Origin: Owenia fusiformis
Taxonomy: Eukaryota > Annelida > Polychaeta > Sabellida > Oweniidae
NCBI GenBank assembly: GCA_903813345.2
Contig: CAIIXF020000004.1
Location: 2,439,525-2,503,524, forward strand
DNA: 64,000 nt
Reading direction: 5' to 3'
Shown here: piece by piece, positions 3,036 through 44,307 of the stretch
Numbering within the stretch: position 1 is the stretch's first letter
Layout: each line of letters begins with the position of its first letter
Made by a program: the position numbers and the translations under genes
The notes under the pieces: generated by a model
Databases searched by the model: none
Told to the model about the DNA's origin: nothing
Seen by the model: only the letters and a program-made list of their open reading frames with translations

Positions 3036-4085
3036 CAGAAAGTGTAGAGAGATTTAAAGTGCAAGCAATATTGATTTATATTACATGTGGAATCTTATGT
3101 AGAAAGATTTAAAGTGCAAGCAATATTGATTTATATTACATGTGGAATCTTATGTAGAAAGATTAAAAGTGCAAGAAATATTGATTTATATTACATGTAG
3201 AATCTTATGTAGAGAGAATAAAAGTGCAAGCAATAGTGATATATATTTAATGTAGAATCTTGTGTAGAGAAATTAAAAGTGCAAGCAATTTTGGTTTATA
3301 TGAAATAAAGAATCTTATGTAGAGTGTTAAAGCAATTTTTATTTATATTCAATGTAGAATCTTATGTAGAGAGATTAAAAGTGCAATCAATTTTGGTTCA
3401 TATTACATGTAGAATCTTATGTAGAGATATAAAAGTGCAAGCAATTTTGGTTTATATTAAATGCAGAATCTTATGTAGAGTGTGCAAGCAATATTGATTT
3501 ATATTGATGTAGAATCTTATGTAGAGATATAAAAAGTGCAAGCAATTTTGGTTTATATTAAATGCAGAGTCTTATGTTCTAGTGTGCAAGCTATATTGAT
3601 TTATATTCAATGTAGAATCTTATGTAGAGAGATTAAAAGTGCAATCAATTTTGGTTCATATTACATGTAGAATCTTATGTAGAGATATAAAAGTGCAAGC
3701 AATTTTGGTTTATATTAAATGCAGAATCTTATGTAGAGTGTGCAAGCAATATTGATTTATATTGATGTAGAATCTTATGTAGAGATATAAAAAGTGCAAG
3801 CAATTTTGGTTTATATTAAATGCAGAGTCTTATGTAGAGTGTGCAAGCTATATTGATTTATATTACATGTAGAATCTTATGTAGAAAAATTAAAAATGCA
3901 AGCAATATTGATTTACTGTACTCTATTTACTATGATAAGAATCTTATATAGAGACTAAAAGTGCAGCTTATGATTTATATTCAATGCAGAATCTTATGTA
4001 GAGATATTAAAATGCAAGCAATACTGATTTATATACATCTAGAATCTTATGTAGAGAGATTAAAGTGCAAGCAATATTGGCTTGA
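3036..4085 (+). repeat. Satellite array, about 55-bp unit with a 258-bp higher-order repeat
   Basis: The unit has the core AGAATCTTATGTAGAG followed by ATTAAAAGTGCAAGCAAT and TTGATTTATATT. Around 19 copies of variable length run through the region. Blocks starting near 3347 and 3605 repeat the same ordered series of variant units, giving a higher-order period of about 258 bp. No coding frame survives through it. Confidence 0.9.
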
Positions 4086-9553: not shown

Positions 9554-9651
9554 TATTTTGATGAATTACCTAGTCCATGTGATGTGATCATCTGCAAAAT
9601 ATATTTCATCTTCTCATCATAATCGTGTCATCGAACTCAGAAGAATTGAAA

Positions 9652-11064
9652 ATGCAGAAATATATATCCTTGTTCGTGGGCATACTGTGCACATTTTTAG
9701 GAGGTGGTGTGTTTTCGTTCAATACATTTGCGATCACCTTGAAGGCGACATTCAACTATACACAGATAGATTTGGAGAATATCTTTATAAGTGCGGACAT
9801 TGGGCAAAATATTTGCTTTCCCGCCGGCTTAATATTTGATAAATTTGGACCTAGAGTTGCAAATTTATTTGGTTTGATTGTTACCGGAGCCGGATTTACA
9901 CTTCTTTGGATGACAACAAAGTTTAAAACATTTTTCGCAGCTAATGTCTGGTTGTGTTGTATTATATATTTCGTTACACTATTCGGAACAACATTTTCTT
10001 ATGTTGCAGCTATTTCTGTAAACTCAAGAACTTTTGAAAAGAAATATAGAAGTTTAATACTGGCGATTCTCTCAGCTGTATTTGGGGTTGCTGCGACAAT
10101 ATACAGCGCCATCTATCAAGGCTTTTTTGTACAAGGTCACGTGGAAGATGCCGAAAATCAAAAATATGGAGATTTTATGCTGTTGCTGGCTGTGCTTGCT
10201 GTGGTTATTCATTTGTTAGCTATAGGCTTTCTTAAGGAAATCCCTGCTGATGAAATAGATGAACGTATTGAATTGAACGATCTCTTCAAAACATGCGAAG
10301 AAAACAAACTCACTGACACCGAAATAAATGCAATAGAAGGTGCAAATGAGGAAAAGACATTGATTCCAAATGACACCAATTCATATACACCAAACCTGAA
10401 TATATGGCAAATCATAAAAACGCTGCAATTTTATTACCTTTTTACAATAACTTGTATTCTAGTGGGATCTGGTGCTACATATGTCAACAATATCTCGACT
10501 GTCTTGAAATCTTTAAAGAGAGAGACTGACATTTCGGTTTTTACAATCAGCCTTCCACTATTTAATGTGATAGGAATGATTAGCAGTCCTCTTTGCTTCA
10601 ATTATATTTGTCTCAAATGGCCTAACATTCCCAAATCATTAAGTCTCTTACATTGTTCTGTTTCAATGTTGATAGGTCTACTTGTTATGATTTTCTTTTA
10701 TCATGAATTCGCTGGCTTGTTCATTAGCGCGATTATGATAACCTTTGCATTTGGGTCAATATTTGTGCAAATACAATGGGTCTTTCTTGAACTATTTGGT
10801 GTAAAATACATTGGACAAATCCTTGGGCTTGTATATTTCGCATTTGGCCTGGGTATGTTAGGACTTCAATTATTATTTGGGTTTAGTTACGAAGTCAATA
10901 GCCCACATGGATCAAAAGAGTGTTATGGTGAATCTTGCTCAAAAGGATTGTTTGTTTTACTTGCAATTTTATGTTTTTGTGCATTGTTTTTAAATGTTTG
11001 TCTTATCAAAATTGAAAGAGATGACATTCTGAAGCGCAAAGAAAACGTGCGCGTTAATGAATAA
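9652..11064 (+). CDS. MFS transporter, nodulin-like/NFD4 type, intronless
   Basis: 470 residues from the first in-frame ATG at 9652. The frame is open from 9583 and has an upstream GTG at 9625, but ATG is the expected eukaryotic start. There are about twelve hydrophobic segments in two groups of six, split by a hydrophilic loop at roughly residues 200-255. The N half begins with YISLFVGILCTFLGGGVFSF and carries a motif-A-like GLIFDKFGPR between helices 2 and 3. The C half has GSGATYVNNISTVL, which matches the NNL-type motif of nodulin-like/NFD4 transporters. Substrate is unknown; the fold predicts an integral membrane protein. The absence of introns in an intron-bearing genome suggests an old retrocopy or an intron-poor lineage-specific family. 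A short basic C-terminus (KIERDDILKRKENVR) is probably cytosolic. Confidence 0.85.
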   Translation: MQKYISLFVGILCTFLGGGVFSFNTFAITLKATFNYTQIDLENIFISADIGQNICFPAGLIFDKFGPRVANLFGLIVTGAGFTLLWMTTKFKTFFAANVWLCCIIYFVTLFGTTFSYVAAISVNSRTFEKKYRSLILAILSAVFGVAATIYSAIYQGFFVQGHVEDAENQKYGDFMLLLAVLAVVIHLLAIGFLKEIPADEIDERIELNDLFKTCEENKLTDTEINAIEGANEEKTLIPNDTNSYTPNLNIWQIIKTLQFYYLFTITCILVGSGATYVNNISTVLKSLKRETDISVFTISLPLFNVIGMISSPLCFNYICLKWPNIPKSLSLLHCSVSMLIGLLVMIFFYHEFAGLFISAIMITFAFGSIFVQIQWVFLELFGVKYIGQILGLVYFAFGLGMLGLQLLFGFSYEVNSPHGSKECYGESCSKGLFVLLAILCFCALFLNVCLIKIERDDILKRKENVRVNE

Positions 11065-21514: not shown

Positions 21515-21520
21515 TTTATT
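21515..21520 (-). terminator. Polyadenylation signal of the neuropeptide gene
   Basis: AATAAA on the - strand, about 215 bases past the stop codon of the precursor. Confidence 0.45.
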
Positions 21521-21735: not shown

Positions 21736-22912
21736 TCAATGTTTTTTGTTTTCAGAGTTCCTTTTTCCGAGGATGTGTCCACCAATCTCGTCAAGGCTTC
21801 TTTCTAAATTACGTCTGCCCAGGATATTGCTTCCTATTTCGTCTAACTGTCGTCTACCCAAAATATTACTTCCAATTTCGTCAAGATTTCTTCTTCCTAG
21901 TATATTGCTACCAATTTCGTCCAATTGTCTTCGTCCAAGGATGTTGCCACCGATTTCGTCCAAATTTCGTCTACCCAAAATATTGCTACCAATTTCGTCC
22001 AATTGTCTTCGTCCAAGGATGTTGCCACCAATTTCGTCCAAATTCCGTTCACCCAAAATATGGCCACCAATTTCGTCTAGATTGCGTCTACCCAAAATGT
22101 TGCCACCGATTTCGTCCAAATTCCGTTCACCCAAAATATGGCCACCAATTTCGTCTAAATTGCGTCTACCCAAAATGTTGCCACCGATTTCGTCCAAATT
22201 CCGTTCACCCAAAATATGGCCACCAATTTCGTCTAAATTGCGTCTACCCAAAATGTTGCCCCCAATTTCATCCAAATTGCGTTCCCCCAAAATATGGCCA
22301 CCAATTTCGTCCAAATTCCGTTCACCCAAAATATGGCCACCAATTTCGTCCAAATATCTTCTACCTAAAATATTGCTTCCGATTTCATCAAGCTGACGCT
22401 CGTGTTTGTCACTCTTTTTAATAAGTCCCATACCGATGCTATCTATAGGCCTTTTCTTGATTAAGCCCATGCCAATACTGTCCAAAGGTCTCTTCTTGAT
22501 AAGTCCCATTCCGATACTGTCCATGGGCCTTTTCTTAATGAGGCCCATTCCGATACTGTCCATGGGCCTTTTCTTAATGAGGCCCATTCCGATGCTATCC
22601 ATTGGCCTTTTCTTAATGAGGCCCATTCCGATGCTGTCCATTGGCCTTTTCTTAATGAGGCCCATTCCGATACTGTCCATGGGCCTTTTTTTAATTAGTC
22701 CCATTCCGATGCTATCCATTGGCCTTTTCTTAATAAGTCCCATTCCGATACTGTCCATTGGCCTTTTCTTAATGAGGCCCATTCCGATACTGTCCAAAGG
22801 TCTCTTCTTAATGAGCCCCATTCCGATACTGTCCATAGGTTTTTTCTTTATAAGGCCCATTCCTATTGAGTCAAGTCCTCTTTTAGCAGCACTTTCTTTT
22901 GCATCACCCGAA
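21736..22912 (-). CDS. Pedal peptide/orcokinin-type neuropeptide precursor, main (last) exon
   Basis: The acceptor TTTCTTTTCCAG precedes 22912 on the - strand and the stop is at 21736-21738. Joined to 36346-36404 it gives 411 residues. The exon opens with SGDAKESAAKR, then about 12 tandem units of the type PMDSIGMGLI + KKR, a linker (SDKHERQ), and 16 units of the type NLDEIGGNILG + RR/ER/KR, ending NSENKKH. Prohormone convertase cleavage at KKR and RR would release many short peptides. GRR and GKR predict C-terminal amidation (-NIL-amide), whereas the DSIG set ends in Ile before KKR and should be a free acid. The xLD(E/S)IG core resembles orcokinins (NFDEID) and molluscan pedal peptides (PLDSVY), so I place it in that superfamily. 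Its exact orthology is inference. Both domains use a 13-residue (39-bp) unit. Confidence 0.88.
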
Positions 22913-23681
22913 CTGGAAAAGAAATAAAAACAACATATTCAATGATACTCCACGAGATACTACTAGAGTAGTTATTTGATCAATAGCAAACATTTTCACA
23001 TTGTTTTACGTTGGAATGGTGAATTATCAAAAACGAGACCTACTTGTTCATACGTGCTTTTCAAAAACATGTTTTATGCAGACAAAAATCATCTTTAAAA
23101 GGTGACAAAATATTGAGACTTGTTCAAAATTCAAAGTATAAATATCATAAGAGTTTGTGTAGCTTGGCCTTGACCAACCATTGGCCATTGAGCTGCTTGA
23201 GACCAATTTCACTTTAAGAGATCATGGTGTAAACCATATTATCATTAATATAGAAACAATAATTGAAAATGGCAACTCAATAGCTGTATCAATCAGAGCT
23301 GCAATCAAAATAAATTTCAAAATTCTCAACGCCAAATAAAGATATCATGCGAATACCAAGACGAATCCCGAACAAACGACACATTTTACTACTTTTGATT
23401 TATAAGGAGCATGCAGTGCAACATACGAGTATCAATTTCTACATTGATCCATGAATTCGAAATGTTGTTATTATCGGAAAGTGCTTTACATAACTAGTTA
23501 GTGGTATCTAGGAAAATTCAAGCATATCCTTGATATAACTTATGAGGTATTAGTCTATGTATATTAATCACACCTTGGCATTATAAACGCCGTGAACAGT
23601 CATGATTTCTGTAACATTCTTCGATATATATTGTAGTTTGTAGTAATCAATTGTATGTAATAACCGAACTCCTACTACATT

Positions 23682-23804
23682 CAGGCCTATAGTCAGGGGG
23701 AGGGGGGGGGGGTCACACAGTTTTCACCATTTCGAGCACTTTTCAAATCCCCTTGGTTTTTCAAAAAGTGAAACCCCGGCCCACCTTAGCTGGCCAATAG
23801 CCTG
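23682..23804. mobile_element. 123-bp inverted-repeat element, CAGGCC family, with 5-bp target duplication
   Basis: Ends CAGGCCTATAGTCAGG and (complement) CAGGCTATTGGCCAG; flanked by identical ACATT at 23677-23681 and 23805-23809. A G run follows the left end, as in the 18576 and 40049 copies. Confidence 0.7.
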
Positions 23805-25333
23805 ACATTCGTAGAACTAGGGGAAATCATTATGATTTAACAGTTAATATAAACGTTATGATGGAGAAATCTTATACGAAAATTCTTTATATTTTAAGAC
23901 AAGGACCTGTTATAGGTTATGGTTAAAGCCGTATCATTACTTTGGATGGTGATTAAACTGTTTAAAGCTCATAAGTCATATTAATGAAGCCATTAGCGAC
24001 ACATTGGCTAATTCAATCAGGTATCTTGTACAGGTGCAAACGTTTCTTCTAAATATTGCGCTCGTTTTGATGTATGCCAATATTTACAATGAATCTAGAC
24101 ACGTTTTCAAGTTTTTTCTTAAAACAAATCTTCCAGTAAATATGCAATTTTCGATCTTTTGATTGATATTCAAATGACATTCGCATCATCTTGAAACAAA
24201 ATTCTGAGGAATAAATAGATATGAGCAGGACTATGTTTGCAGCCGATATTGTGTTTGTACAGGGTGTCCAAAAGACAGGACCGTAAGAAAGTTGAATTAC
24301 TCGGTCAATTTTGCATATTTTGCCTTGAAAGGAGTTGGGTAAACTAGCAACAGAGAGTGCCCCAATTGAAGTGTGAAAAAACTTTTTTTAAGAATAGGAG
24401 AAAAAAACATCAGAAATGCATAGATTGAATATATTATTGGGTAGTATTTTTTAAAAAATTTAGAAAAAATTGTTACGGTGTCTGGAGACCTTCAAAGAGG
24501 GTGGGGGCCAGAAGGAAAAAAATTCACATATTTTGCAACCCTCTTGATGAATTCCAATTTACTCAGCTATGAATGAATGTTTTTGATTTATCTGTCCAGG
24601 ATTATGTAAATATATATTTATTTGATCCATACATACAATTGATTTAAACAATATGTACAGTTTAGAGGTAAGTAAAGCTTTGAAAGGACATTTCATGCTG
24701 AGTCTGGGTGACATTTTTATTCACTGGAGGTAGTAATCCTTTGAGTGTTTTCACATAGAGCATAACAAGTCTCCACTCTAATAAGTGCTTCTTTAGTTAC
24801 ATAAATGTTATATTGTTGCATACAAAGAATAATTTTGATGGAGACTTATTATGCTCGATGTGAATTTTAGAACTTTATAGAATATTTTGCCAGCCATTTT
24901 TGTTGATTATTCAAAATGGCCAAATGCTATTCATGCTGCATATGTAGGAAGCAAGGGCATTATAAAATTTTAGATGCTAAAATACCTGAAACATCAAGTG
25001 GTTATATGTGCACAACATCTGAATCAGGTAGTTCAAGTGATGATGAGTAAAACTAATCAGAAAATGTTTCATTGTTATTTCATTAACAAGCCAATGATGA
25101 AATGTGTTGAGATTTTAGATGTTTTTCACCTTTTAGGTGATCTCCAAGAAGTGATTATCTCCGTTATGTGTACTTACTGTTTCCTAGACATTATCAGAAT
25201 GATTGATAATAAACTTAATAGTTGCTTTAAAATTATGTTGAATAATATCATTATGTTGAATTATAATATACACAGTGTGTGTGTTTAGTGTGTGGTTTTT
25301 AGCATACCCTATGTCGCTAACAGGAAGCAGGAC

Positions 25334-28300
25334 ACTTTGATTAAACACAAGAGAGTGCTATGCTACGATGTTCCTGCTTGCCTTTCAACTCACTCGGTCA
25401 GTTTGTCATGTTGGTACCAACCTTTACATTCTTCGATGGTTTGAACACCACTATAGCCAGAGCGGTCGACCTTTAAGCGCTACCTGCTGTACGCACTACT
25501 CTGCCCTTGTTGGTAAAGGGATGGTGAACAAACCCTCGATGAATGTATTAGCAATTGTCAAATAAGTCGTTGGTTAATGTTGTCTCCCCTTTGCCCATTT
25601 GTCATTTCTCCTCAGCCAGAGCCAGCGGGAGGCTTCCTCTGCTGCAGATCCAACTGCTCTGTTCGCTCTCTTGAGCCATGAGGGTGGGAGTCCTACATTT
25701 TTGAACATTCGGTTGAGAGATGTTGATGGAAATCCTCTACAACCTACTTCAACGGGATAGTAATGAACTTTCCACCCTTTGGCCTCTATCTCCTCAACCA
25801 GATCTTGGTACTTAGCGCTTTTGAGTTGGTGTGCTACCTCAATTCGATCTTCCCAAGGTACTGTCAGTTCTATCATGACAGCAATTCTTTTATCCTCTGA
25901 GAATAAAAGCATATCTGGTCTTTGGTTTGTTGTCGTGATACTGCTGGGAAATGTGAGTCTTTGGTGTAGATCTACTCTCAGCTCCCAGTCCTGTGCTTGT
26001 TGTAAGATGCCATATCTTCCTCGAGAGGTGTGCCTGCTACCGCTAGGCAAAACCTTCCCTTTAGGATTTGCGTTGGCACCCACAAAATGTTTCTCTAAGG
26101 GTTGCAACATATCTGCCCTTGGTCCTGGTGTTACAGTTGCATTCGTTTTGTTCATGATCCGTGATTGGTCCACCCAGTGAGAAATCTTTTGAAGAACTTT
26201 GTCATGCCTCCATGTGTACCTTCCCTCTGCAAGTGCAGCCTTGCACGAACTCAGGATGTGTTGGATGTTACTTCTCAGAGCTCCACAGTGGATACATGAT
26301 GCATCTTCATTAAGACCCCAGGTAGTGAGATTGGCAGGAGATGGTAAAAGATCAGATATTGCTCTTAATAAGAAGCTTATCTTGCCCTGCTCCATATCCC
26401 ATATGTCTTTCCATGAGAGCTGTCGATCGAGTGTAGACTCCCAGTGGGTCCATGCACCTTGTTTGACTAATTGTGCTAACCTCACCTGTCTACCCTCTTC
26501 CTCTGATTGCCTTATCTGCTGTACTACAAGCTTCCTTCTTGTCTCTGTGTTGGCATCTTTCCACCTGGATGTGCCATAGTTTCCAAGGCCCATCCTACCT
26601 TTGCAAACGACACCTACTATGTCCTTATGACGGAGTTGGCTTTCAGCAATACCGATTGCCTGTTGAGGATTCCATCCCCTCCCGCTCGATATTGTTTCTC
26701 CCGAGCTAGTAACTTTATTGTCCTTTGAAGAGCGTAGAGTGGTTACTGCTCTTACTTTGGCTGCTTTGTACTCTTCAAGTACTGAAGTTACCGGGAGGCT
26801 GAGCTTGGGAGATTTACTGAATAGAATACCTCTGCTGAATGAAGGTGGTACACCTAGCCATTTCCTAAGGAACCTTGATGACATTCTCTCCATTTGCTCA
26901 ACCTTGCCCATAGGGAAGTCATAAAGCAGAAACGGCCATTGTAGTCTTGAGATAATTCCATGCTGGAACGCCCATGCCTTGAACTTGCCCTGGAGCTGGC
27001 ATTTGTCAATCGCTCCGAGCCATCTCTTGAGCTCACACACAACATTGTTCGTATTGTTGATGTCGTTCAAGGAATCATCATAGTGTTTACCGAGGCATTT
27101 AATGGGCTGTTCACTGACAGTAGGAATTCTCTCTCCCTGGATAGTGAATGTGTTCGATTCTACTTTCCCCTTGATGATAACGAGGCTTCTGGATTTAGCT
27201 GGTTTGAACTTCATCCTAGCCCAGGTGGCCATTTTATCAAGCCCCTGTAACACCCATCTTGTTCCAGTCATAGTTGGTGTCATGACAGTTATGTCATCCA
27301 TGAATGCTCGACAAGGAGGATGGCGTTCTCCTGAGTCTGCAACTGGGCCTCTACATTCTTTCTCTGCCGCAGTGAGGATGACATTCATGGCTGCCACAAA
27401 TAGCACCACTGAGACTGTGCACCCAGCCATTATGCCCTTCTCTAGCCTTTGCCATTTGGTGGTATAGTCTTCTACTGTAAACCGCATCTTAAGAGTGTCA
27501 AAATGATGCATGAGGAGACTGATGACTTCATCTGGGACATGATAGTGGGTCAGTGCTGTCTTTATAAGCTGGTGTGGGACACTCGGATAGGCCTTGGCTA
27601 GGTCAAGCCAAACGACTGCTAGGGTTTTCCTCCGTTGTTTTGCTTCTTTAATCAGTTGTGTGATGGCTGCAGTGTGTTCTAAACAGCCAGAGTAACCAGG
27701 TATTCCTCCCTTCTGGACACTTGGGTTAAGATATTTATTCTCCAGTAAGAAAGATGTCAGTCTTCTGGCGATGACTGTCCAAAATATCTTACCCTCTACA
27801 TCCAGCAGTGAGATTTCCCTGAACTGGTCTAGTTTCACTGAGTTTTCCTCTTTCGGTACAAAACAGCCTTCTGCTAATGCCCATGCTTTTGGAATGGTTT
27901 TGTTTCTCCAAATAGACTTAATGAGCTTGCTGAGTCTTTGTAGTAGCTTTGGACAGTTCTTGTACACTTTGTATGTGTTCCCTGATGGTCCTGGGGCTGC
28001 CGATGATCGGGCATGTTGCACTATCTGTCGTATCTCCTCCATCTTGATGTCACCTAGGTCAAATGCAATCTTCGGAGGTGGCTCAGGAATAGGTAAAGGA
28101 CATTCCCCTAATGGAGTTGCTCTCTCAGGATCACTGTGAGCAGCTCGAACACTTTCCTCGACATCCTCCTTTGGGCATTGTAATTTCCCACCTTTAGGTT
28201 TCCCAAGTAAGTTGGATGTATACTGGAATGGATTCTTGAGAAAAGATTTTCGAGCTCTCTTCTTTTCTCTCTGCTTTTTCCTGAGGTTCTCTGCTCTTCT

Positions 28301-29153
28301 AAGAACTGAAAGCTGCTTCCTGAGGCTGTCTCTTAGATCTTCCAGTGCCGGTTTTTTAAAGTCAGGGGCATGCTTCCATCTCCATGTGAGCCTTCTCATA
28401 TCTCTTCTTAGTGCAGCTATTCTCTTCTGTCTCCTGCTAGGTCCAGCTTTACCCTCTTTCTTGCTGTTTGCTCTCTTCTCCTGGAATCGTTCTGCACACA
28501 TGGCGTACACTTGTCTTGTCATTGATTCCATCTTCTTACCAGCTGTCCCTTTCAAGGAGTTCTCAAGTACATCATCCATCTCGTCATCAAGTTCTTTCCA
28601 AACTTTGTCTGTTGTTGCAGGCAAGCGCAGTCTTGGCTTCCTTTCGAGAACTGGGCCATCATTCTCTTCTCTACCAACTTGAGGTGGGTCAGGTTCAGGA
28701 GAAACTTGGAGGTCTTGAACACTGTGGTTTAAGTCCTGGTTCAAATCCTCCTGTGTTTTACGGACAGGAGACTCCTTCCTACACTGTTTCTGCTTCTCAT
28801 GACACTTCATCTTTCCCTTGTGTATTGCTACTCCTCGGATGTTCTTGAAAAGTCCACCACAACTGTCACATCTTGCCCTTGGCTCTACTTGTGTTGTAAT
28901 CGTCTTCCTTCTCGTTGTCCGGGTCACATTGCTTTGGTCAGTTTCCGTTAAATCTGTCCGATTTGGTGGATCATCCTCCCCCGAGTCTCCTCCCACCTGG
29001 GGGTGTTTTCCTTTAGTTCTAGTCGTAGCAATTCTGTTTTAGGTGTGTCGGGGAGCTGGCCCTAACACCTGGTTTGCTGTCTCTCCAGCTGTCACTGCTC
29101 TTTCGCAGACGTCATAGGGACTTTCCCCTCGGTCACTGGCACTGCCAGAGTTA
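25334..29153 (-). mobile_element. R2-group non-LTR retrotransposon, full-length copy
   Basis: 3.8 kb element read on the - strand: about 157 bp of 5' leader, one large ORF, and a 240-bp 3' UTR ending in ...TTTAATCAAAGT. The 5' boundary is set by its junction with the 3' end of the second copy at 29153/29154. No poly-A tail is visible, as is usual for site-specific R2-group elements. Flanking target duplications could not be recognised. Confidence 0.85.
25574..28996 (-). CDS. Retrotransposon polyprotein: zinc finger, reverse transcriptase, restriction-like endonuclease
   Basis: 1140 residues if read from the GTG at 28996; the frame is open back to a TAA a few dozen bases earlier, with no ATG before residue 63. 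Domains in order: an N-terminal CX2CX12HX5C zinc finger (C43, C46, H59, C65); a basic region; reverse transcriptase at about 330-640 with motif A DLAKAYPSVP (D465), motif B GCTVSVVLF and the catalytic FMDD at 565-568; a thumb/linker region; a CX2CX8HX4C knuckle (C901 to C918); and a restriction-like endonuclease with RPD (1026-1028) and ELTVPWE (from E1043). This order and endonuclease type define the R2/NeSL/Hero group rather than the APE-type LINEs. No Ulp1 protease domain is seen, which argues against NeSL. The frame is intact, so recent activity is possible. Confidence 0.9.
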   Translation of the reverse strand: MGGDSGEDDPPNRTDLTETDQSNVTRTTRRKTITTQVEPRARCDSCGGLFKNIRGVAIHKGKMKCHEKQKQCRKESPVRKTQEDLNQDLNHSVQDLQVSPEPDPPQVGREENDGPVLERKPRLRLPATTDKVWKELDDEMDDVLENSLKGTAGKKMESMTRQVYAMCAERFQEKRANSKKEGKAGPSRRQKRIAALRRDMRRLTWRWKHAPDFKKPALEDLRDSLRKQLSVLRRAENLRKKQREKKRARKSFLKNPFQYTSNLLGKPKGGKLQCPKEDVEESVRAAHSDPERATPLGECPLPIPEPPPKIAFDLGDIKMEEIRQIVQHARSSAAPGPSGNTYKVYKNCPKLLQRLSKLIKSIWRNKTIPKAWALAEGCFVPKEENSVKLDQFREISLLDVEGKIFWTVIARRLTSFLLENKYLNPSVQKGGIPGYSGCLEHTAAITQLIKEAKQRRKTLAVVWLDLAKAYPSVPHQLIKTALTHYHVPDEVISLLMHHFDTLKMRFTVEDYTTKWQRLEKGIMAGCTVSVVLFVAAMNVILTAAEKECRGPVADSGERHPPCRAFMDDITVMTPTMTGTRWVLQGLDKMATWARMKFKPAKSRSLVIIKGKVESNTFTIQGERIPTVSEQPIKCLGKHYDDSLNDINNTNNVVCELKRWLGAIDKCQLQGKFKAWAFQHGIISRLQWPFLLYDFPMGKVEQMERMSSRFLRKWLGVPPSFSRGILFSKSPKLSLPVTSVLEEYKAAKVRAVTTLRSSKDNKVTSSGETISSGRGWNPQQAIGIAESQLRHKDIVGVVCKGRMGLGNYGTSRWKDANTETRRKLVVQQIRQSEEEGRQVRLAQLVKQGAWTHWESTLDRQLSWKDIWDMEQGKISFLLRAISDLLPSPANLTTWGLNEDASCIHCGALRSNIQHILSSCKAALAEGRYTWRHDKVLQKISHWVDQSRIMNKTNATVTPGPRADMLQPLEKHFVGANANPKGKVLPSGSRHTSRGRYGILQQAQDWELRVDLHQRLTFPSSITTTNQRPDMLLFSEDKRIAVMIELTVPWEDRIEVAHQLKSAKYQDLVEEIEAKGWKVHYYPVEVGCRGFPSTSLNRMFKNVGLPPSWLKRANRAVGSAAEEASRWLWLRRNDKWAKGRQH

Positions 29154-30624
29154 ACTTTGATTAAACACAAGAGAGTGCTATGCTACGATGTTCCTGCTTG
29201 CCTTTCAACTCACTCGGTCAGTTTGTCATGTTGGTACCAACCTTTACATTCTTCGATGGTTTGAACACCACTATAGCCAGAGCGGTCGACCTTTAAGCGC
29301 TACCTGCTGTACGCACTACTCTGCCCTTGTTGGTAAAGGGATGGTGAACAAACCCTCGATGAATGTATTAGCAATTGTCAAATAAGTCGTTGGTTAATGT
29401 TGTCTCCCCTTTGCCCATTTGTCATTTCTCCTCAGCCAGAGCCAGCGGGAGGCTTCCTCTGCTGCAGATCCAACTGCTCTGTTCGCTCTCTTGAGCCATG
29501 AGGGTGGGAGTCCTACATTTTTGAACATTCGGTTGAGAGATGTTGATGGAAATCCTCTACAACCTACTTCAACGGGATAGTAATGAACTTTCCACCCTTT
29601 GGCCTCTATCTCCTCAACCAGATCTTGGTACTTAGCGCTTTTGAGTTGGTGTGCTACCTCAATTCGATCTTCCCAAGGTACTGTCAGTTCTATCATGACA
29701 GCAATTCTTTTATCCTCTGAGAATAAAAGCATATCTGGTCTTTGGTTTGTTGTCGTGATACTGCTGGGAAATGTGAGTCTTTGGTGTAGATCTACTCTCA
29801 GCTCCCAGTCCTGTGCTTGTTGTAAGATGCCATATCTTCCTCGAGAGGTGTGCCTGCTACCGCTAGGCAAAACCTTCCCTTTAGGATTTGCGTTGGCACC
29901 CACAAAATGTTTCTCTAAGGGTTGCAACATATCTGCCCTTGGTCCTGGTGTTACAGTTGCATTCGTTTTGTTCATGATCCGTGATTGGTCCACCCAGTGA
30001 GAAATCTTTTGAAGAACTTTGTCATGCCTCCATGTGTACCTTCCCTCTGCAAGTGCAGCCTTGCACGAACTCAGGATGTGTTGGATGTTACTTCTCAGAG
30101 CTCCACAGTGGATACATGATGCATCTTCATTAAGACCCCAGGTAGTGAGATTGGCAGGAGATGGTAAAAGATCAGATATTGCTCTTAATAAGAAGCTTAT
30201 CTTGCCCTGCTCCATATCCCATATGTCTTTCCATGAGAGCTGTCGATCGAGTGTAGACTCCCAGTGGGTCCATGCACCTTGTTTGACTAATTGTGCTAAC
30301 CTCACCTGTCTACCCTCTTCCTCTGATTGCCTTATCTGCTGTACTACAAGCTTCCTTCTTGTCTCTGTGTTGGCATCTTTCCACCTGGATGTGCCATAGT
30401 TTCCAAGGCCCATCCTACCTTTGCAAACGACACCTACTATGTCCTTATGACGGAGTTGGCTTTCAGCAATACCGATTGCCTGTTGAGGATTCCATCCCCT
30501 CCCGCTCGATATTGTTTCTCCCGAGCTAGTAACTTTATTGTCCTTTGAAGAGCGTAGAGTGGTTACTGCTCTTACTTTGGCTGCTTTGTACTCTTCAAGT
30601 ACTGAAGTTACCGGGAGGCTGAGC
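29154..30624 (-). mobile_element. Second retrotransposon copy, 5'-truncated, head-to-tail
   Basis: Carries the 3' 1471 bp of the same element; by eye I see no base differences from 25334-26804. Its coding part keeps roughly the last 408 residues (including CCHC and endonuclease) and is cut at the codons for SLPVTSV. Its 3' end directly abuts the 5' end of the full-length copy; both copies begin this 3' end with ACTTTGATTAAAC on the + strand. Confidence 0.9.
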
Positions 30625-31139
30625 ATATTTCTCATAAAAAATAAACATTACTTTACGAGTCAAATCATGAAATGTACATTCTGAATTTAAATGAATTAAA
30701 AATAATAAAGTATTTTCATTATTTTAGGTACTTTTGTTCTCTTTCAGTGTTGCGTGGGAAGGGCGGAATATATTAATATAAATATCTCATTATTGGCAAA
30801 TTGCCAATTTACTATATATTGTAATTCCAACCTCTATGAGACTAAATTCCTACAGATATTTGTGATATTTTAACCAAAAAGGTATATTTTGGTAGAGATA
30901 ATGAATTTTTTTAATTTGACCTTGACCTCGGGAATATGACCTTGACCTAAATTTTCATACATTTTTGAAACACATATATCACATAGATTAATAAAATAAA
31001 GAGAAAACTTGAAAATCAGGTGGGGCTTAAAATGGCCTTGTTTACCCAACTCCTTTAAGAATTATTTAGTTCATTTAATGTAAATTTTGTTCTGAAAGTT
31101 TGATGATAATCTGTTTATTGTTTCAAAAACTACAGTCCT
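30625..31139. other. Decayed transposon sequence between retrotransposon and transposase remnant
   Basis: AT-rich, with repeated TGACCTTGACCT near 30918-30950 and a block AAAGGAGTTGGGTAAAC (on the - strand near 31040-31060) also present at 24338, just inside the left terminal repeat. Probably pieces of the host element. Confidence 0.4.
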
Positions 31140-31428
31140 TTACGAAACATGCTCAACGTGGGCACTTCTCCTCTCTATGCACAAACGAATCCTGCGAACA
31201 AAGTTGTTAATGACCCTTACCTATACACATTAATGTGGATGGTAAATATTGGGGTAGTTATTGCCCTCTTAAGATTGTTAGGGGCCTGTCAGTATACACA
31301 TTGGCTTTGAGAAATCCTCAAAGATAAAAATTCGGGGGATTTAGATCAGGCGAATGAGCTGCCCATATAGTTTGCGTTCTGCAACTGATGAGCTGACCAC
31401 CAAAGCATTGCCTAACCCATTTCAGCAT
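31140..31428 (-). pseudogene. Tc1/mariner-like transposase C-terminal remnant
   Basis: The - strand reads MLKWVRQCFGGQLIS..., then WAAHSPDLNPPNFYL-stop-GFLK, the SPDLNP.DF.LWG.LK signature around the last catalytic Asp of IS630/Tc1/mariner DDE/D transposases. It ends VINNFVRRIRLCIERR...HV-stop. At least two in-frame stops and one frameshift break it. Confidence 0.8.
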
Positions 31429-31734
31429 ATCATTTGCAGTGTTAGGGTGGTATTAGCTTTTTGAAACCACTGCTTAATTATCTCCTTAGATGTCCCTTCT
31501 GGTGCTTAGTGACATCCAAAACTTGGTGAGAACTTACTGGTCCTTGTTCATGGTAGTTGCAAGTCCCCAGTCACCTTTGAACCAAAAGGGACTGATGATT
31601 CCATGTTTCCTCATTGCCACCCAGGGAGTGCATTGTTCAAAATGCAATGGATGCTGCAACACTTCACCAGGAGGATGTAAGCCCCAGTAGCAATTGTTCA
31701 TGTAACAAACTTGTCCATTCAGAAAGAAATGTGT

Positions 31735-31817
31735 GTAGGAGGATCATCAACAGCTTTGTTCGCCGGATTGAATTGTGCATAGAGATGAGATTTGCACATT
31801 TGGGGCATGTTTTGTAA
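31735..31817 (+). pseudogene. Second transposase C-terminal remnant, + strand
   Basis: The + strand reads CRRIINSFVRRIELCIEMRF and then AHLGHVL-stop, clearly homologous to the end of the - strand remnant at 31140. It is followed by a matching 3' flank that runs into the right terminal repeat ending at 31976. Confidence 0.65.
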
Positions 31818-32297
31818 GGAGCTGTAGTTTTTGACTCAATTGGTAGATTATTCTCAACCTTTCACAACAAAATCTACATTGAATGAACTAAATAATTCTG
31901 AAATTTCGAGGCAAAATATGCAAATTTGACAGAGTTATTCAACTTTCTTACGGTCCTGTTTTTTTTGGACACCCTGTAGTTTGTTTAAATTGTAGTTTAG
32001 ATATACCTGATTTGGAACAGTATAACCTAATAAAACAAGTCTCAAAATGATCTCAGCATCGTTCTGATGAAAAAATGAAGAAAACCCGTCTTCCCATTGT
32101 AGTTTAGAAACATGTAAGCCTAAGGGCAAGTAACCCGACATATATCAAGTTACAAGTGAGGAAATCCCCAACACCCCGGCCATCGATTTCACTTGCGGGC
32201 CTGGTAATTTGATATTAAGGTTTTAATTAAGGCTCTATTTAAGTATTATCTACATTATAATATCTGAAGGTTACATTTGTTTCTCATTTACACTTAG

Positions 32298-32657
32298 GAT
32301 TCACAAGCGTATGCAAAAACATATGATACAAAAAAGCTTACTAGTACAAGAATCTGCGGACTCCGAAAGTCGAAAGATATATATCCTTCAAACACAAGCC
32401 TCCAGAGAATCTGGAAGAAGGAGGTACAAGATCTGGAGGCCTTTGTTCCGAGGTTGAAAAGATACATAGCACAAAGTGTTAAATCGGATTATATTTGTGA
32501 GAACAATATGAATAAAGCCGAACAACTAATTAATATTTACCCTGATACCCCTGCTTTCATAAATCTTTTTAAATGTGTTTTCCATTTTCTTTTCAATATA
32601 TTACCAGGGGACCTAAAGAAACAGAACTATTTAATAAATAAGCCACTTATGCTTTGA
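32298..32657 (+). CDS. Candidate terminal exon, unknown protein
   Basis: TTGTTTCTCATTTACACTTAG forms a good acceptor ending at 32297. It is followed by 119 open codons to a TGA at 32655-32657; the upstream stop in this frame is the TAG of the acceptor itself. The first 45 codons are GC-richer and protein-like (SLQRIWKKEVQDLEAFVPRL), and an internal GTACAAG could act as a donor after KKE. The tail is AT-rich. No family is recognised and no upstream exon is linked. Confidence 0.3.
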   Translation, partial: DSQAYAKTYDTKKLTSTRICGLRKSKDIYPSNTSLQRIWKKEVQDLEAFVPRLKRYIAQSVKSDYICENNMNKAEQLINIYPDTPAFINLFKCVFHFLFNILPGDLKKQNYLINKPLML

Positions 32658-33534
32658 CAGTCACCGAGTCATCGTCATTTAAGATATATTACAAAAACCT
32701 TTTATGAAAGAAGATTCAAAGTCTAATTATAAAATTATGTAAATATACATTTTAACGAGGCTTGATGAATTTACCTAGAGAGTTTAAGAGCGCCCGTGAG
32801 GATATCTGATTCCTATTTCAGACTCTAATGAATCAATGCATCCTGTATGTCTTACAAACATATCACGTCACAATCTTTAACAAATTGAGGGGATATGTTT
32901 TTCATGCAATATACTCTTGTAAAATGGATAAATCAGAGAATATGTGATGCGAGATATTTTTAAAGCCAATATATCACAATATCAGAAAACATAATTGTCG
33001 CTGGAAATACATCAACACGTACTGACGTTAATTTGAAAGACAATGAATTGGGTTCTATTAGAGTCCTTCTAAAATACAATGATATGTGTCTCCCCGATTA
33101 AAAGGTTATGCCTCGTTACTACAGCGTAGACTTAAATAGTAATTTAGTAATATTCGGATCTTGAGTGTTGCGCATGCGTTCCCCGAAGAATTACATGTTG
33201 TTTAGTATCTGTAGTCATCGCCATTATTCGGTATACATGAGAAAAATTACTTAGAAGTTGAATGGAATTAATATCTTAAATTCTATATCATGATCGGTGT
33301 ATGGTGGCTTTTATTGAAGGAATAAAGAGCCTCGTATCATTCTTGATTGAAAATTCAAAATGAAAGGATGAGTGCATGCCCTGATTCATACACATAATTC
33401 ATTTTCATTTTCAGGATTGATTAGTACACCTACGTATAAAAGCTTTTAAATACTCTAAGCTGATTGGCTGAGACACACTTTGCATATTTGAATGTAGATT
33501 AATTCATTCAAACATCAACTACATTTTAAATACG

Positions 33535-36500
33535 ATGAAACCAATCCTTCAAATTGCATATCGATGCATTGGTAAGTTTAATCTTCATAAAGGGTGAAAT
33601 CTTTCTAAAGCTTGAATGTAAAGATGAATAAATGTTTCTTTGTTAAGTGGTGGACTGGTGAGAGTCTTCAATCAATGTTCAATGGATGTCTGTCGGCGAG
33701 AGATTAATAGAAGACAAGAAGGATGAAACTTAATCCCAAGTTGTAATGACTTAATTTCTGCTTTGCGTAAGAGGATTATCTACGCGCAAAGCATTATGGG
33801 AAGTCCGTTTTGCATCACGTGATTAACCTGTTAGATTGTGAATTGGAAGTGTTGCATCTTGGGATTAATAAAAAATCCTTTGTGTATGGAAGTGAATAAG
33901 TCATGGATCAAATACGGAGTGAAGATAACGTCAGGAAACGTTCAAAAATAATGAACCGGAGTTACCCAACAAATTAGTTACCGTTAAACTACCGTGTAAA
34001 ACCAATAGACCGTTCCAAAAAACCCTGGCATATTTTGTTGTACCAAAGAACCTGAAATCAGATCCATATAATGTATTATTTTGTAGCAGGTAGTTATTTT
34101 TAAAATCAAACTGCCAACATGCTCAAAATGATACTTCTGTTTCGTAACTTTGCAATTGTTGCCTATGGTATTATAAAAAATATCGAATACAACTCCCGGG
34201 ATATTACTCAGTTTCAAAGTTCATGAAAAGAAAGCATTGATATTTATATACCACCCTATGCTTAGTGAGCGGACCTAATTTCAAGGGTGATGGTAAGACG
34301 AGGCATGGCGCCCAAAAACCAAAGAATATTAGTACCATAAGTCGTATTATTGCAGCATTAGGTGATGATATTGTGATATTTCATGCTGTTTTAGAAGTGA
34401 AAGATGTTAAACTATGCATACCGTTTGTTTTACATCCAATAAAACGAATAGTTAAGATGAAACAGTCGTTTAAAGATACAATTTGAATTTACCGCAAGAA
34501 ATTACAACCTAATATTGTCAATATGTCAATAATTCCTGATCGATGTCACATATAAAGATATATGTAGCTAGATATGTTTATTTTTTTCATATATGCGAAA
34601 TAAGGCGGTCTCTAGTTATGTACATCCAATACAAAATGAATGTTTACTATTCGGCGATCAGAATTTCGATGACGAGCAATGGCGATGTAATTTGCGAAGA
34701 AAGCATCAGTGCACCTAGTTACAGGGCAGGTTTGGGCGCCATGCATCGTCTTTACCATCACCCTTGAAATTAGGTCCGCTCACTAAGCATAGGGTGTATA
34801 CGAAATGTGTAAATGGTAATTATTTTCGAGCTCGGTCAGAAGCTCTTTTTGCTTGTTTTCATAGCAACAATTATTTCAAATAAACATTTCAACCCCCTTG
34901 CATATGTAAAATAGCGGCTAATACACTAATTTGGGTTAAAAAATCAAATAGAAATCATCCGACTTTAATATGGGATAGATAGTTGGATTATTTTCCGAAT
35001 GCATTAGTATTCCATTAGTATAATATAGCAAGCGAAATAAACCCGACATTCATTCGAATTCGAACGTGTTCCAAATTACGGTGTGAAAGAAATTATGGTC
35101 CCCCGGGGATTATGGTCCCCTTCTTAACGGCCCTTACTGACCCTGATTATGTATAAGATAATAAGGGAAAGAGGTCACCATATAAATCAATGGAGAGTAG
35201 GACCATAATTTGATAGGACATCCTCCCCTTTTGCAACGGTTAATCTTGATATTTGAGTGCATGAATGGCACGATACGCACGGTGGTGTTAATAAAAGACT
35301 CGCTAAAAGTGTAATAATTAGATAGATATAGAATAATGCAGTGCAATTATTTGAATAAGTTCACATTGTTAAAATAACCATATTATCTTAAATTACTACA
35401 TGACAAGAATTGAACAAAATACAATTAATTCTTAAACCAACTATGGCCACCCAGCGTACTTCAATACGCTTAGTTCCGTGACAGTCTACTTTTCATGATA
35501 ATTTTTATATTGCAGATATCGGCACAAGAAAATTCCATTCGCAGGTACGTAGAAATTGATATGTTACTATAGAATGTAATAGGTGGTTTTACATGCGTGC
35601 TAAGTAGCTAGTTAGGACTTGCTGAAATCGTTATTTTATTGTTATTACCTTCCGTTTGGCACAGAGTTAGCAGTCAAACATTATAAGAATTAATTCACCT
35701 ATCGACACCTACATACAGGATTTAAGTAAATTATCCTCACGCAGGTTCATATGGAATTCTTAAACATAAATGTTGTTTATGTTTGACGCGAGGAAACTTT
35801 AAGCAATTTCAATAAATCGAAAATCGTTGCTGTATTCGAATGAAATAGTGCAATTCAGTGGAAATATTGTTAAAAGGGCGTGCATTCCATACTAGACTGA
35901 ATAATGAAGATATAAAACTATTAGAACTAAGTATACGATTATTGTTTTGAGTTGAATTAGTGTTATTGGATCGTTGATGAGACTTTAAGCTTGTGTTAAA
36001 GTGAAGCAACCGCATTTGATGTAAATCACCTGGTTGCAATCGGAATTATAAGTGAATGGTAAGGTTCTCAGGTGCGAAAAACTATCCAGCCCATATATGT
36101 TCATTCACACGAATATTTGAAATAAATTAACTCGATGTGAAACGAAAATTTGGAACGCGACAGGAAAGATATAATCAGAAATGAAATTAATAACTGAAAT
36201 TCTTTATAGCCTATTTTGACAATTTTAATACTTTATTTCCAAGTATAGAGTTACTATCATGGCCAGGACTTTTCGGTTAAAGCAAATTTATTTGGGGTGG
36301 TTCATTGAAAAGACTGATCAATGAAAACGTGTCCCCGATTCTTACCTTGGCATTAATGTCACTATAGCAACGACTAATCCTGCCAGCCACCCGTGTGACC
36401 TCATGGCTACTCTTCTCTAGAAACCCTGCAAATATACAAAATAAAAATAACATTATTTGTTTATTTCAAATGCAGTAAATATAAGTGTTTTTTATACACG

Positions 36501-43887: not shown

Positions 43888-43977
43888 CAGGTTGATCCAG
43901 AAGTAACATCAAAGGTGTTGCCATTTCAACACTATTTTAAATGGCAATTTCTTTGACGTTACTTCTATATCACCCTG
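43888..43977. mobile_element. 90-bp Tc1/mariner-type MITE
   Basis: Ends CAGGTTGATCCAGAAGTAAC and (complement) CAGGGTGATATAGAAGTAAC; the arms pair over about 40 bp around a short AT loop. Flanked by TA on both sides. Confidence 0.75.
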
Positions 43978-44307
43978 TATATATATACCTAATACATGAT
44001 GTTCTTGCACACAGACGGATCACCCTGTATATATACCTAATACATGATGTTCTTGCACACAGACGGATCACCCTGTATATATACTTAATACATGATGTTC
44101 TTGCACACAGACGGATCACCCTGTATATATACCTATTACATGATGTTCTTGCACACAGACGGATCACCCTGTATATATACCTATTACATGATGTTCTTGC
44201 ACACAGACGGATCACCCTGTATATATACCTATTACATGATGTTCTTGCACACAGACGGATCACCCTGTATATATACCTATTACATGATGTTCTTGCACAC
44301 AGACGGG
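43971..44307 (+). repeat. Tandem array, 48-bp unit, seven copies, seeded at the MITE end
   Basis: CACCCTG recurs at 43971, 44021, 44069, 44117, 44165, 44213 and 44261, so the period is 48 bp (50 for the first). The unit runs CACCCTGTATATATACCT, ATTACATGATGTTCTTGC, ACACAGACGGAT. The first CACCCTGTA is the right end of the MITE at 43888-43977. Because 48 is a multiple of 3, all frames stay open by artefact. Confidence 0.92.

Follow-up and report, generated by a model that had tools for sequence, protein, structure and literature searches.

A probable neuropeptide precursor gene of Owenia fusiformis with two sets of short FCAP/orcokinin-B-like peptides

Introduction

Multicopy neuropeptide precursors of several kinds have been described in molluscs, insects and other invertebrates. 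In the scallop Patinopecten yessoensis, Py-FCAP2 holds 13 copies and six of its peptides are confirmed by mass spectrometry, including MLDRVGMGLI, LLDRVGMGLI and AIDRIGSGLV, all listed without an amide; Py-FCAP1 holds 21 copies, with GLDRLGGAYLHGF among its peptides (PMC5996578). In Aplysia, FCAP drives feeding rhythms (PMC8735849). The cuttlefish precursor So-orcokinin B, formerly FLGamide, carries FLGa 3-5, which are amidated, FLGa 6, which is not, and FLGa 1 and 2, which both end in PYY; its predicted peptides were detected by mass spectrometry, tissue mapping found 1, 2 and 3 but not the other three, and it modulates oocyte transport and capsular secretion (PMC9410093). The Bugula precursor BnPep likewise mixes a Gly-Lys-Arg unit with others (PMC4990251), so the idea of two kinds of peptide in one gene is not new. 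Here we describe a putative neuropeptide precursor gene of the annelid Owenia fusiformis, on the minus strand of a stretch of 64,000 nucleotides (contig CAIIXF020000004.1 of assembly GCA_903813345.2, positions 2,439,525 to 2,503,524), which we call the window and whose numbering we use throughout. It is very probably a real gene for two sets of short peptides, of an ordinary kind but in an unusual layout. In the annelid Platynereis, the name of a single precursor, LYamide/FDSIG, reportedly refers to an amidated peptide and an FDSIG one.

Each of the described systems shares some features with the present gene and lacks others. Array A, the first of its two peptide arrays, resembles Py-FCAP2 in being multicopy and in its Asp, its G-M-G-L-I ending and its ten-residue length; the scallop precursor has 13 copies rather than 12 and Arg where array A has Ser at position 4, and the sections of the report drawn on here describe no LDEIG-amide array like array B, the second one (PMC5996578). 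The mollusc FCAP1 types (Py-FCAP1, PMC5996578; Hermissenda FCAP, PMC8735849) are multicopy with an LD-x-LGG core, matched by the NFDSLGGAMVHGKR units of a paralogue described below, but their peptides end in HGY/HGF or HGGW/HGGGW, whereas those of array B are shorter and mostly amidatable. So-orcokinin B also places amidated and non-amidated peptides on one precursor, with the core DS(L/I)GGG, but has 12-13 peptide copies against 28 units here, and the portion of its description used here mentions neither segregated blocks nor joints ending in GER, such as we found (PMC9410093). The insect orcokinin B peptides NLDTIGGGHLV and SLDGIGGGNLVG resemble NLDEIGGNIL(G) of array B but are made from an alternatively spliced orcokinin transcript (PMC10570428, PMC4237046), whereas both arrays lie in one exon here. 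A paper whose survey lists FCAP in molluscs and rotifers also describes the family as widespread among other lophotrochozoans, so we claim no first (PMC6425005).

Results

The repeat exon (21736..22912; all features of the gene lie on the minus strand) begins at the acceptor TTTTCCAG/T, where the slash marks the splice boundary, contains both peptide arrays whole and ends with a stop codon at 21736-21738. Joined to 36346-36404, it gives a frame of 411 amino acids plus a stop. Array A (22411..22878) consists of 12 units of 39 bp with the consensus PMDSIGMGLIKKR, predicted to yield free-acid, FCAP2-like decapeptides; its 12 DSIG units comprise eight PMDSIGMGLI, two PLDSIGMGLI, one PIDSIGMGLI and one GLDSIGMGLI. 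The linker DKHER (22396..22410), whose Arg has Lys at P4 and P8, leads to the 16 LDEIG units of array B, of which units 1-15 (21811..22395) have the consensus NLDEIGGNILGRR and the last, SLDEIGGHILGKR, follows NLER and precedes the tail NSENKKH (21760..21810). All 28 units read as 13-mers of 39 bp, and an earlier note on this DNA had the coordinates, the frame and the unit counts right. Downstream, a poly(A)-signal-like AATAAA (21515..21520) starts 216 nt past the last stop-codon base.

Variation among the units follows the reading frame. Variable columns at codon positions 1, 2 and 3 numbered 4, 3 and 12 of 13 in array A and 7, 2 and 12 of 13 in array B, and the other two frames of the repeat exon hold 36 and 13 stops; the frame is therefore not a matter of chance. 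Proportions of synonymous (pS) and nonsynonymous (pN) differences were 0.685 and 0.059 in array A (66 unit pairs) and 0.664 and 0.123 in array B (120 unit pairs); although such pairs are interdependent, they point clearly one way. Because changes between units are mostly synonymous, with the peptides kept while the DNA drifts, the arrays are a selected coding repeat. Tandem Repeats Finder detected a 39-bp period in both arrays and an additional 78-bp period in array B.

Genome searches covered an assembly of 498 Mb in 525 contigs, with the window on contig C4. The protein query found the gene in one place: of eight matches, seven fell within it, one of these on the opposite strand, and the last, on contig C5 (E = 8.4e-5), contains six internal stops. 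A search of PDB sequences gave two weak matches alone (E = 0.28 and 0.33). The exact peptide strings of the gene were not found in open-access main texts, where six of its peptide strings and a consensus matched no paper and six core strings of the gene and its two relatives matched two; a search of this scope does not show absence from print.

The candidate first coding exon (36346..36425) comprises a short 5' untranslated region, an ATG at 36404 and the donor CCAAG/GTAAGA in phase 2, and encodes a hydrophobic, signal-peptide-like stretch, MRSHGWLAGLVVAIVTLMP. The ATG has G at -3 and is preceded by an in-frame stop, the AG of an acceptor ends at 36426, and the exon DNA has a single match in the genome. 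Upstream within the window there are 26 phase-compatible ATG-to-donor stretches of 38-119 nt with a donor score of 4 or more; of these, 36346-36404 ranks first for its donor (10.5; next 8.7) and second for hydrophobicity (2.73), on a simple donor matrix and hydrophobicity scale. We consider it a good candidate signal-peptide exon, which would join the repeat exon across a 13.4-kb intron (22913..36345). Inside this putative intron, on the same strand, lies a non-LTR retrotransposon (25574-29038; RVT_1 and zf-RVT, 1154-aa open frame), and there is a second, partial copy (29394-30647, minus strand). The segments 25334-26804 and 29154-30624 (1471 bp) are 100% identical, which points either to duplication in the very recent past or to an assembly artefact.

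Comparison with known peptides places the gene in the FCAP/orcokinin B assemblage. A query of five of the six scallop FCAP2 peptides confirmed by mass spectrometry found array A as its best genome match (E = 9.6e-12 and 1.3e-11); matches outside the gene with E < 1e-3 hold 4-6 stops, and the gap between array A and these stop-containing matches is wide. A composite FCAP/orcokinin-B query reached the paralogue at 4.7e-11, array A at 7.2e-9 and array B at 6.8e-7, with the best non-precursor at 0.0013; it also matched C1 near 1027584 and C6 near 18365810. At the level of single peptides, PMDSIGMGLI and MLDRVGMGLI are identical at 6 of 10 positions (1 of 20,000 shuffles as good), NLDEIGGNIL and NLDTIGGGHL, the first ten residues of stink-bug orcokinin B NLDTIGGGHLV, at 7 of 10 (3 of 20,000) and NLDEIGGNIL and the FCAP1 sequence GLDRLGGAYL at 5 of 10 (7 of 20,000), in a lenient test in which weaker peptide pairs also outscore most shuffles. 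The QLDEIGSNIL units of array B score 25 to FCAP2 and 20 to orcokinin B.

FCAP and FCAP2 precursors are recognized by numerous copies of about 9-13 residues, each set between basic sites and built around an xxDx(L/I/V/M)G core; the present gene agrees with this in its 28 units, although five of them lack a dibasic site on the C side. The orcokinin-B hexapeptide DS(L/I)GGG (PMC9410093) occurs in neither array in its exact form: array A reads DSIGMG and array B DEIGGN, DEIGSN or DEIGGH, all close to it. We therefore file the gene as FCAP/orcokinin-B-like and not as orcokinin B. The earlier note had spoken of pedal peptide/orcokinin type, which holds for the broad assemblage; the nearest described peptides are FCAP2 for array A and orcokinin B or FCAP1 for the main array-B unit. 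Classical pedal peptides are 15-mers of PLDSV... type without amidation, and the array-A decapeptide ending in GLI has only the P-x-DS start in common with them. Longer FDSI units sit in a different precursor of the genome.

Two relatives surfaced on contig C1 with a genome query of pedal-peptide-like units. One is the exon of an FCAP1-like paralogue (L010:701-1675, near 4885000, minus strand; 324 aa) with many NFDSLGGAMVHGKR units, predicted to be amidated, together with QLDTIGGGMVHGKR, QLDTIGGGMVHG, GLDNIGVGLVHG (then LEEEKR) and QLDTIGGGLVHG units; an upstream candidate signal-peptide exon, MTNFITGSVLLCLLQCSSSAPLVQ, has the best donor score (11.8) and the second hydrophobicity among those listed. 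The other is the exon of a pedal-peptide-like precursor separate from the present gene (L009:5298-7346, near 54060500, plus strand), a 682-aa stop-to-stop frame with many SFDSINGDAGFAKK units of free-acid type and SFDSINGDAGFA units, for which no convincing first exon was found in the 5.3 kb upstream. Pfam matches on these two precursors belong to unrelated families and are spurious, RepC scoring 27.7 against a cut-off of 22.8 bits through repetition. Weak genome matches in an FG-rich, nucleoporin-like frame (L011) and in unrelated tandem repeats (L012, L013, L016 and L017) are not precursors. The pedal-like query also matched C3, and the array-B query C9 and a second place on C10.

The two arrays are probably related, as judged at the protein level. 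In register, their consensuses share D3, I5, G6 and R13, as the earlier note had observed in proposing one ancestral 39-bp unit. Four shared identities were equalled by 4,569 of 20,000 shuffles (best of 13 rotations), and because shuffles reach this count so often we dropped these residues as proof of homology on their own. In the DNA, the two consensuses match at 14 of 39 positions when in register and at 15 in another rotation, and 19,881 of 20,000 codon shuffles do as well. Similarity scores were more telling: the BLOSUM score over the first ten residues in fixed register was reached by 408 of 100,000 shuffles and that over the 13-mer in all rotations by 101 of 20,000. A query of array B alone found array A at 1.8e-8 and the paralogue at 1.1e-8, with the best unrelated match at 0.142, so both arrays and the paralogue go together at the protein level; the paralogue also carries the intermediate-looking units GLDNIGVGLVHG and QLDTIGGGLVHG. 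Common ancestry of the array-A and array-B units thus appears likely from protein searches, similarity scores and the paralogue, and is invisible in the DNA.

The predicted products of the two arrays differ in their C-terminal sites. Amidated peptides are recognized by a Gly immediately preceding a dibasic site. Such a Gly occurs in 11 of the 16 array-B units (10 GRR, 1 GKR) and in none of the 12 array-A units. Array-B units 2 and 3 (22279..22356), 5 (22201..22239), 7 (22123..22161, DNA identical to unit 5) and 9 (22045..22083) end in GER, which has no dibasic site and leaves the Gly unexposed, so that 5 of the 28 units of the precursor lack a dibasic site on their C side. The earlier note had missed these units; its picture of one gene with an amidated and a free-acid family stands as two related families, of which the amidated set is only largely amidatable. 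All five GER units have His at position 8, found otherwise only in the last unit, which ends in GKR. Units 5-6 have the same DNA sequence as units 7-8, and this pair therefore spread recently. Cutting at a GER joint would still leave the unit's own Gly followed by Glu, so that it could not be amidated.

We processed the precursor in silico with the signal peptide set at 24 residues and cuts only at runs of at least two basic residues. Array A then gave its 12 decapeptides in the numbers stated above; array B gave three QLDEIGSNIL-amide, one NLDEIGGNIL-amide and one NLDEIGSNIL-amide as monomers, one SDKHERQLDEIGSNIL-amide and one NLERSLDEIGGHIL-amide, three copies of a 23-mer dimer, NLDEIGGHILGERNLDEIGGNIL-amide, and one 36-mer trimer amide, and short flanking pieces were left over. 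The calculated [M+H]+ is 1033.506 for PMDSIGMGLI acid, 1056.568 for NLDEIGGNIL-amide, 1083.568 for pyro-QLDEIGSNIL-amide, 2460.284 for the dimer amide, 3913.02 for the trimer amide and 1266.632 for NLDEIGGHILGE, the predicted product if GER joints are cut. Monobasic cleavage follows a rule that calls for a further basic residue at P4, P6 or P8. Adding this rule freed a fourth QLDEIGSNIL-amide and an SLDEIGGHIL-amide and cut none of the GER joints; under it the Arg of the DKHER linker is a plausible monobasic cleavage site. The genome contains the Cu2_monoox_C domain of the amidating-monooxygenase family in 28 exon-level matches on several contigs, pointing to an expanded monooxygenase family.

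Finally, other searches and features are recorded here. Genome searches for the FMRFamide family and for the molluscan haemocyanin beta-sandwich gave no match, and as no control responded, absence is not established for either; a search for COX1 also gave no match. An APGW/RGW query returned 27 weak matches, the best (L014) at 1.1e-4, one (L015) not a peptide gene, and no clear APGWamide gene. The annelid erythrocruorin-linker domain had three matches over the cut-off, all on C6, which suggests an annelid; the lack of a haemocyanin match and of a clear APGWamide gene agrees with this but does not establish absence. Elsewhere in the window lie a 493-aa open frame of an MFS transporter, apparently a single exon (9583-11064, plus strand; MFS_1 and Nodulin-like matches), a 48-bp minisatellite with seven copies, 98% matches and frames open on both strands (43969-44306), and a long nested tandem array with periods of 55, 101, 157 and 258 bp (3043-4079).

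Discussion

We put at roughly 0.77 the probability that the locus is one FCAP/orcokinin-B-like neuropeptide precursor gene whose product is secreted, cleaved and co-releases both peptide sets. The signal peptide encoded by the candidate exon at 36346-36404 would send the precursor into the secretory pathway, where prohormone convertases would cut at KKR, KR and RR and a carboxypeptidase would trim the basic residues. Array A would then yield free-acid decapeptides ending in GMGLI, and the GRR and GKR units of array B would yield NIL-NH2 or HIL-NH2 amides via peptidylglycine amidation. Cleavage at the five GER joints is probably poor or absent, and part of array B would therefore leave as tandem amides, namely 23-mer dimers and one 36-mer. 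The same neurons would release both sets together, and the peptides would serve as modulators at G-protein-coupled receptors.

Several points weigh against this interpretation, which is drawn from genome sequence. No Pfam family scored above its cut-off on the repeat exon. With the FCAP2 query, array B does no better than E = 0.195, repetitive queries inflate E-values to the point that frames with 4-6 stops reach 7.3e-6 in that query, and the shuffle tests on ten residues used 11 known peptides that we chose and aligned on the shared Asp. The intron would be in phase 2, compared with offset 0 at the best acceptors of both related precursors, one of which also has a weaker acceptor at offset 1. 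Convertases are often slowed by a Pro after the basic site, which is the arrangement in most array-A units. Amidating enzymes belong to a broad family, and the 28 domain matches are not all the processing enzyme.

A coding-looking minisatellite without gene function would account for the 39-bp and 78-bp tandem periods and the recent exact duplication of units 5-6 as 7-8, but is highly improbable in view of the strong synonymous excess, the cleavage sites kept in most units, the known relatives and the candidate signal-peptide exon. A real repeat exon served by some other signal-peptide exon, with the join to 36346-36404 wrong, is a more substantial alternative that we still judge quite unlikely. 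The 26 candidate stretches, the long intron and the phase unlike that of the related precursors all leave room for such an exon, which might be the candidate starting at 25251 (25178-25251, minus strand) or lie outside the window. The 25251 candidate is more hydrophobic than that at 36404 (3.09 versus 2.73); its donor, however, scores 6.7 against 10.5, and the ATG at 36404 has a G at -3, with an acceptor a short way upstream. The arrays could also have arisen separately and been joined later, their shared D, I, G and R being convergent or drawn from different FCAP/orcokinin ancestors. The missing register signal in the DNA (14 of 39, with 15 in another rotation) suits such a history, as does the closeness of array A to FCAP2 and of the main array-B unit to orcokinin B and FCAP1; the equal unit length, the common exon, the reach of the array-B query to array A (1.8e-8), the intermediate-looking units of the paralogue and the higher score of the QLDEIGSNIL units to FCAP2 than to orcokinin B (25 versus 20) argue the other way, and we consider separate origins unlikely.

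That all joints are cut, GER included, so that no tandem dimers form and the GER units yield NLDEIGGHILGE free acids, seems to us to fall somewhat short of even odds. In the nemertean Lineus, monobasic cleavage has been reported, in most cases where another basic residue lies 3-6 positions upstream (PMC8557429), but none of the five GER joints has Lys or Arg between P2 and P13. If the joints do stay uncut, as our preferred account of the precursor has it, the sequence fits tolerated decay and a way of making tandem peptides alike and does not discriminate between them. A functional design, in which a lost dibasic site was amplified with its neighbour as a 78-bp pair to give bivalent tandem peptides, is a speculative and rather improbable version. 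Were it true, monomer amides, tandem amides (NLDEIGGHILGERNLDEIGGNIL-amide and the trimer) and FCAP2-like free acids would form three ligand classes in a fixed ratio.

Together, the gene and its paralogue place FCAP2-like and FCAP1-like peptides in an annelid genome, and the gene is a clear case of a single exon bearing a free-acid array and a mainly amidated array. The GER question aside, it would be a handsome but ordinary multicopy precursor whose second array is curious; should the GER joints remain uncut, its tandem-dimer neuropeptides would be directly testable by mass spectrometry.

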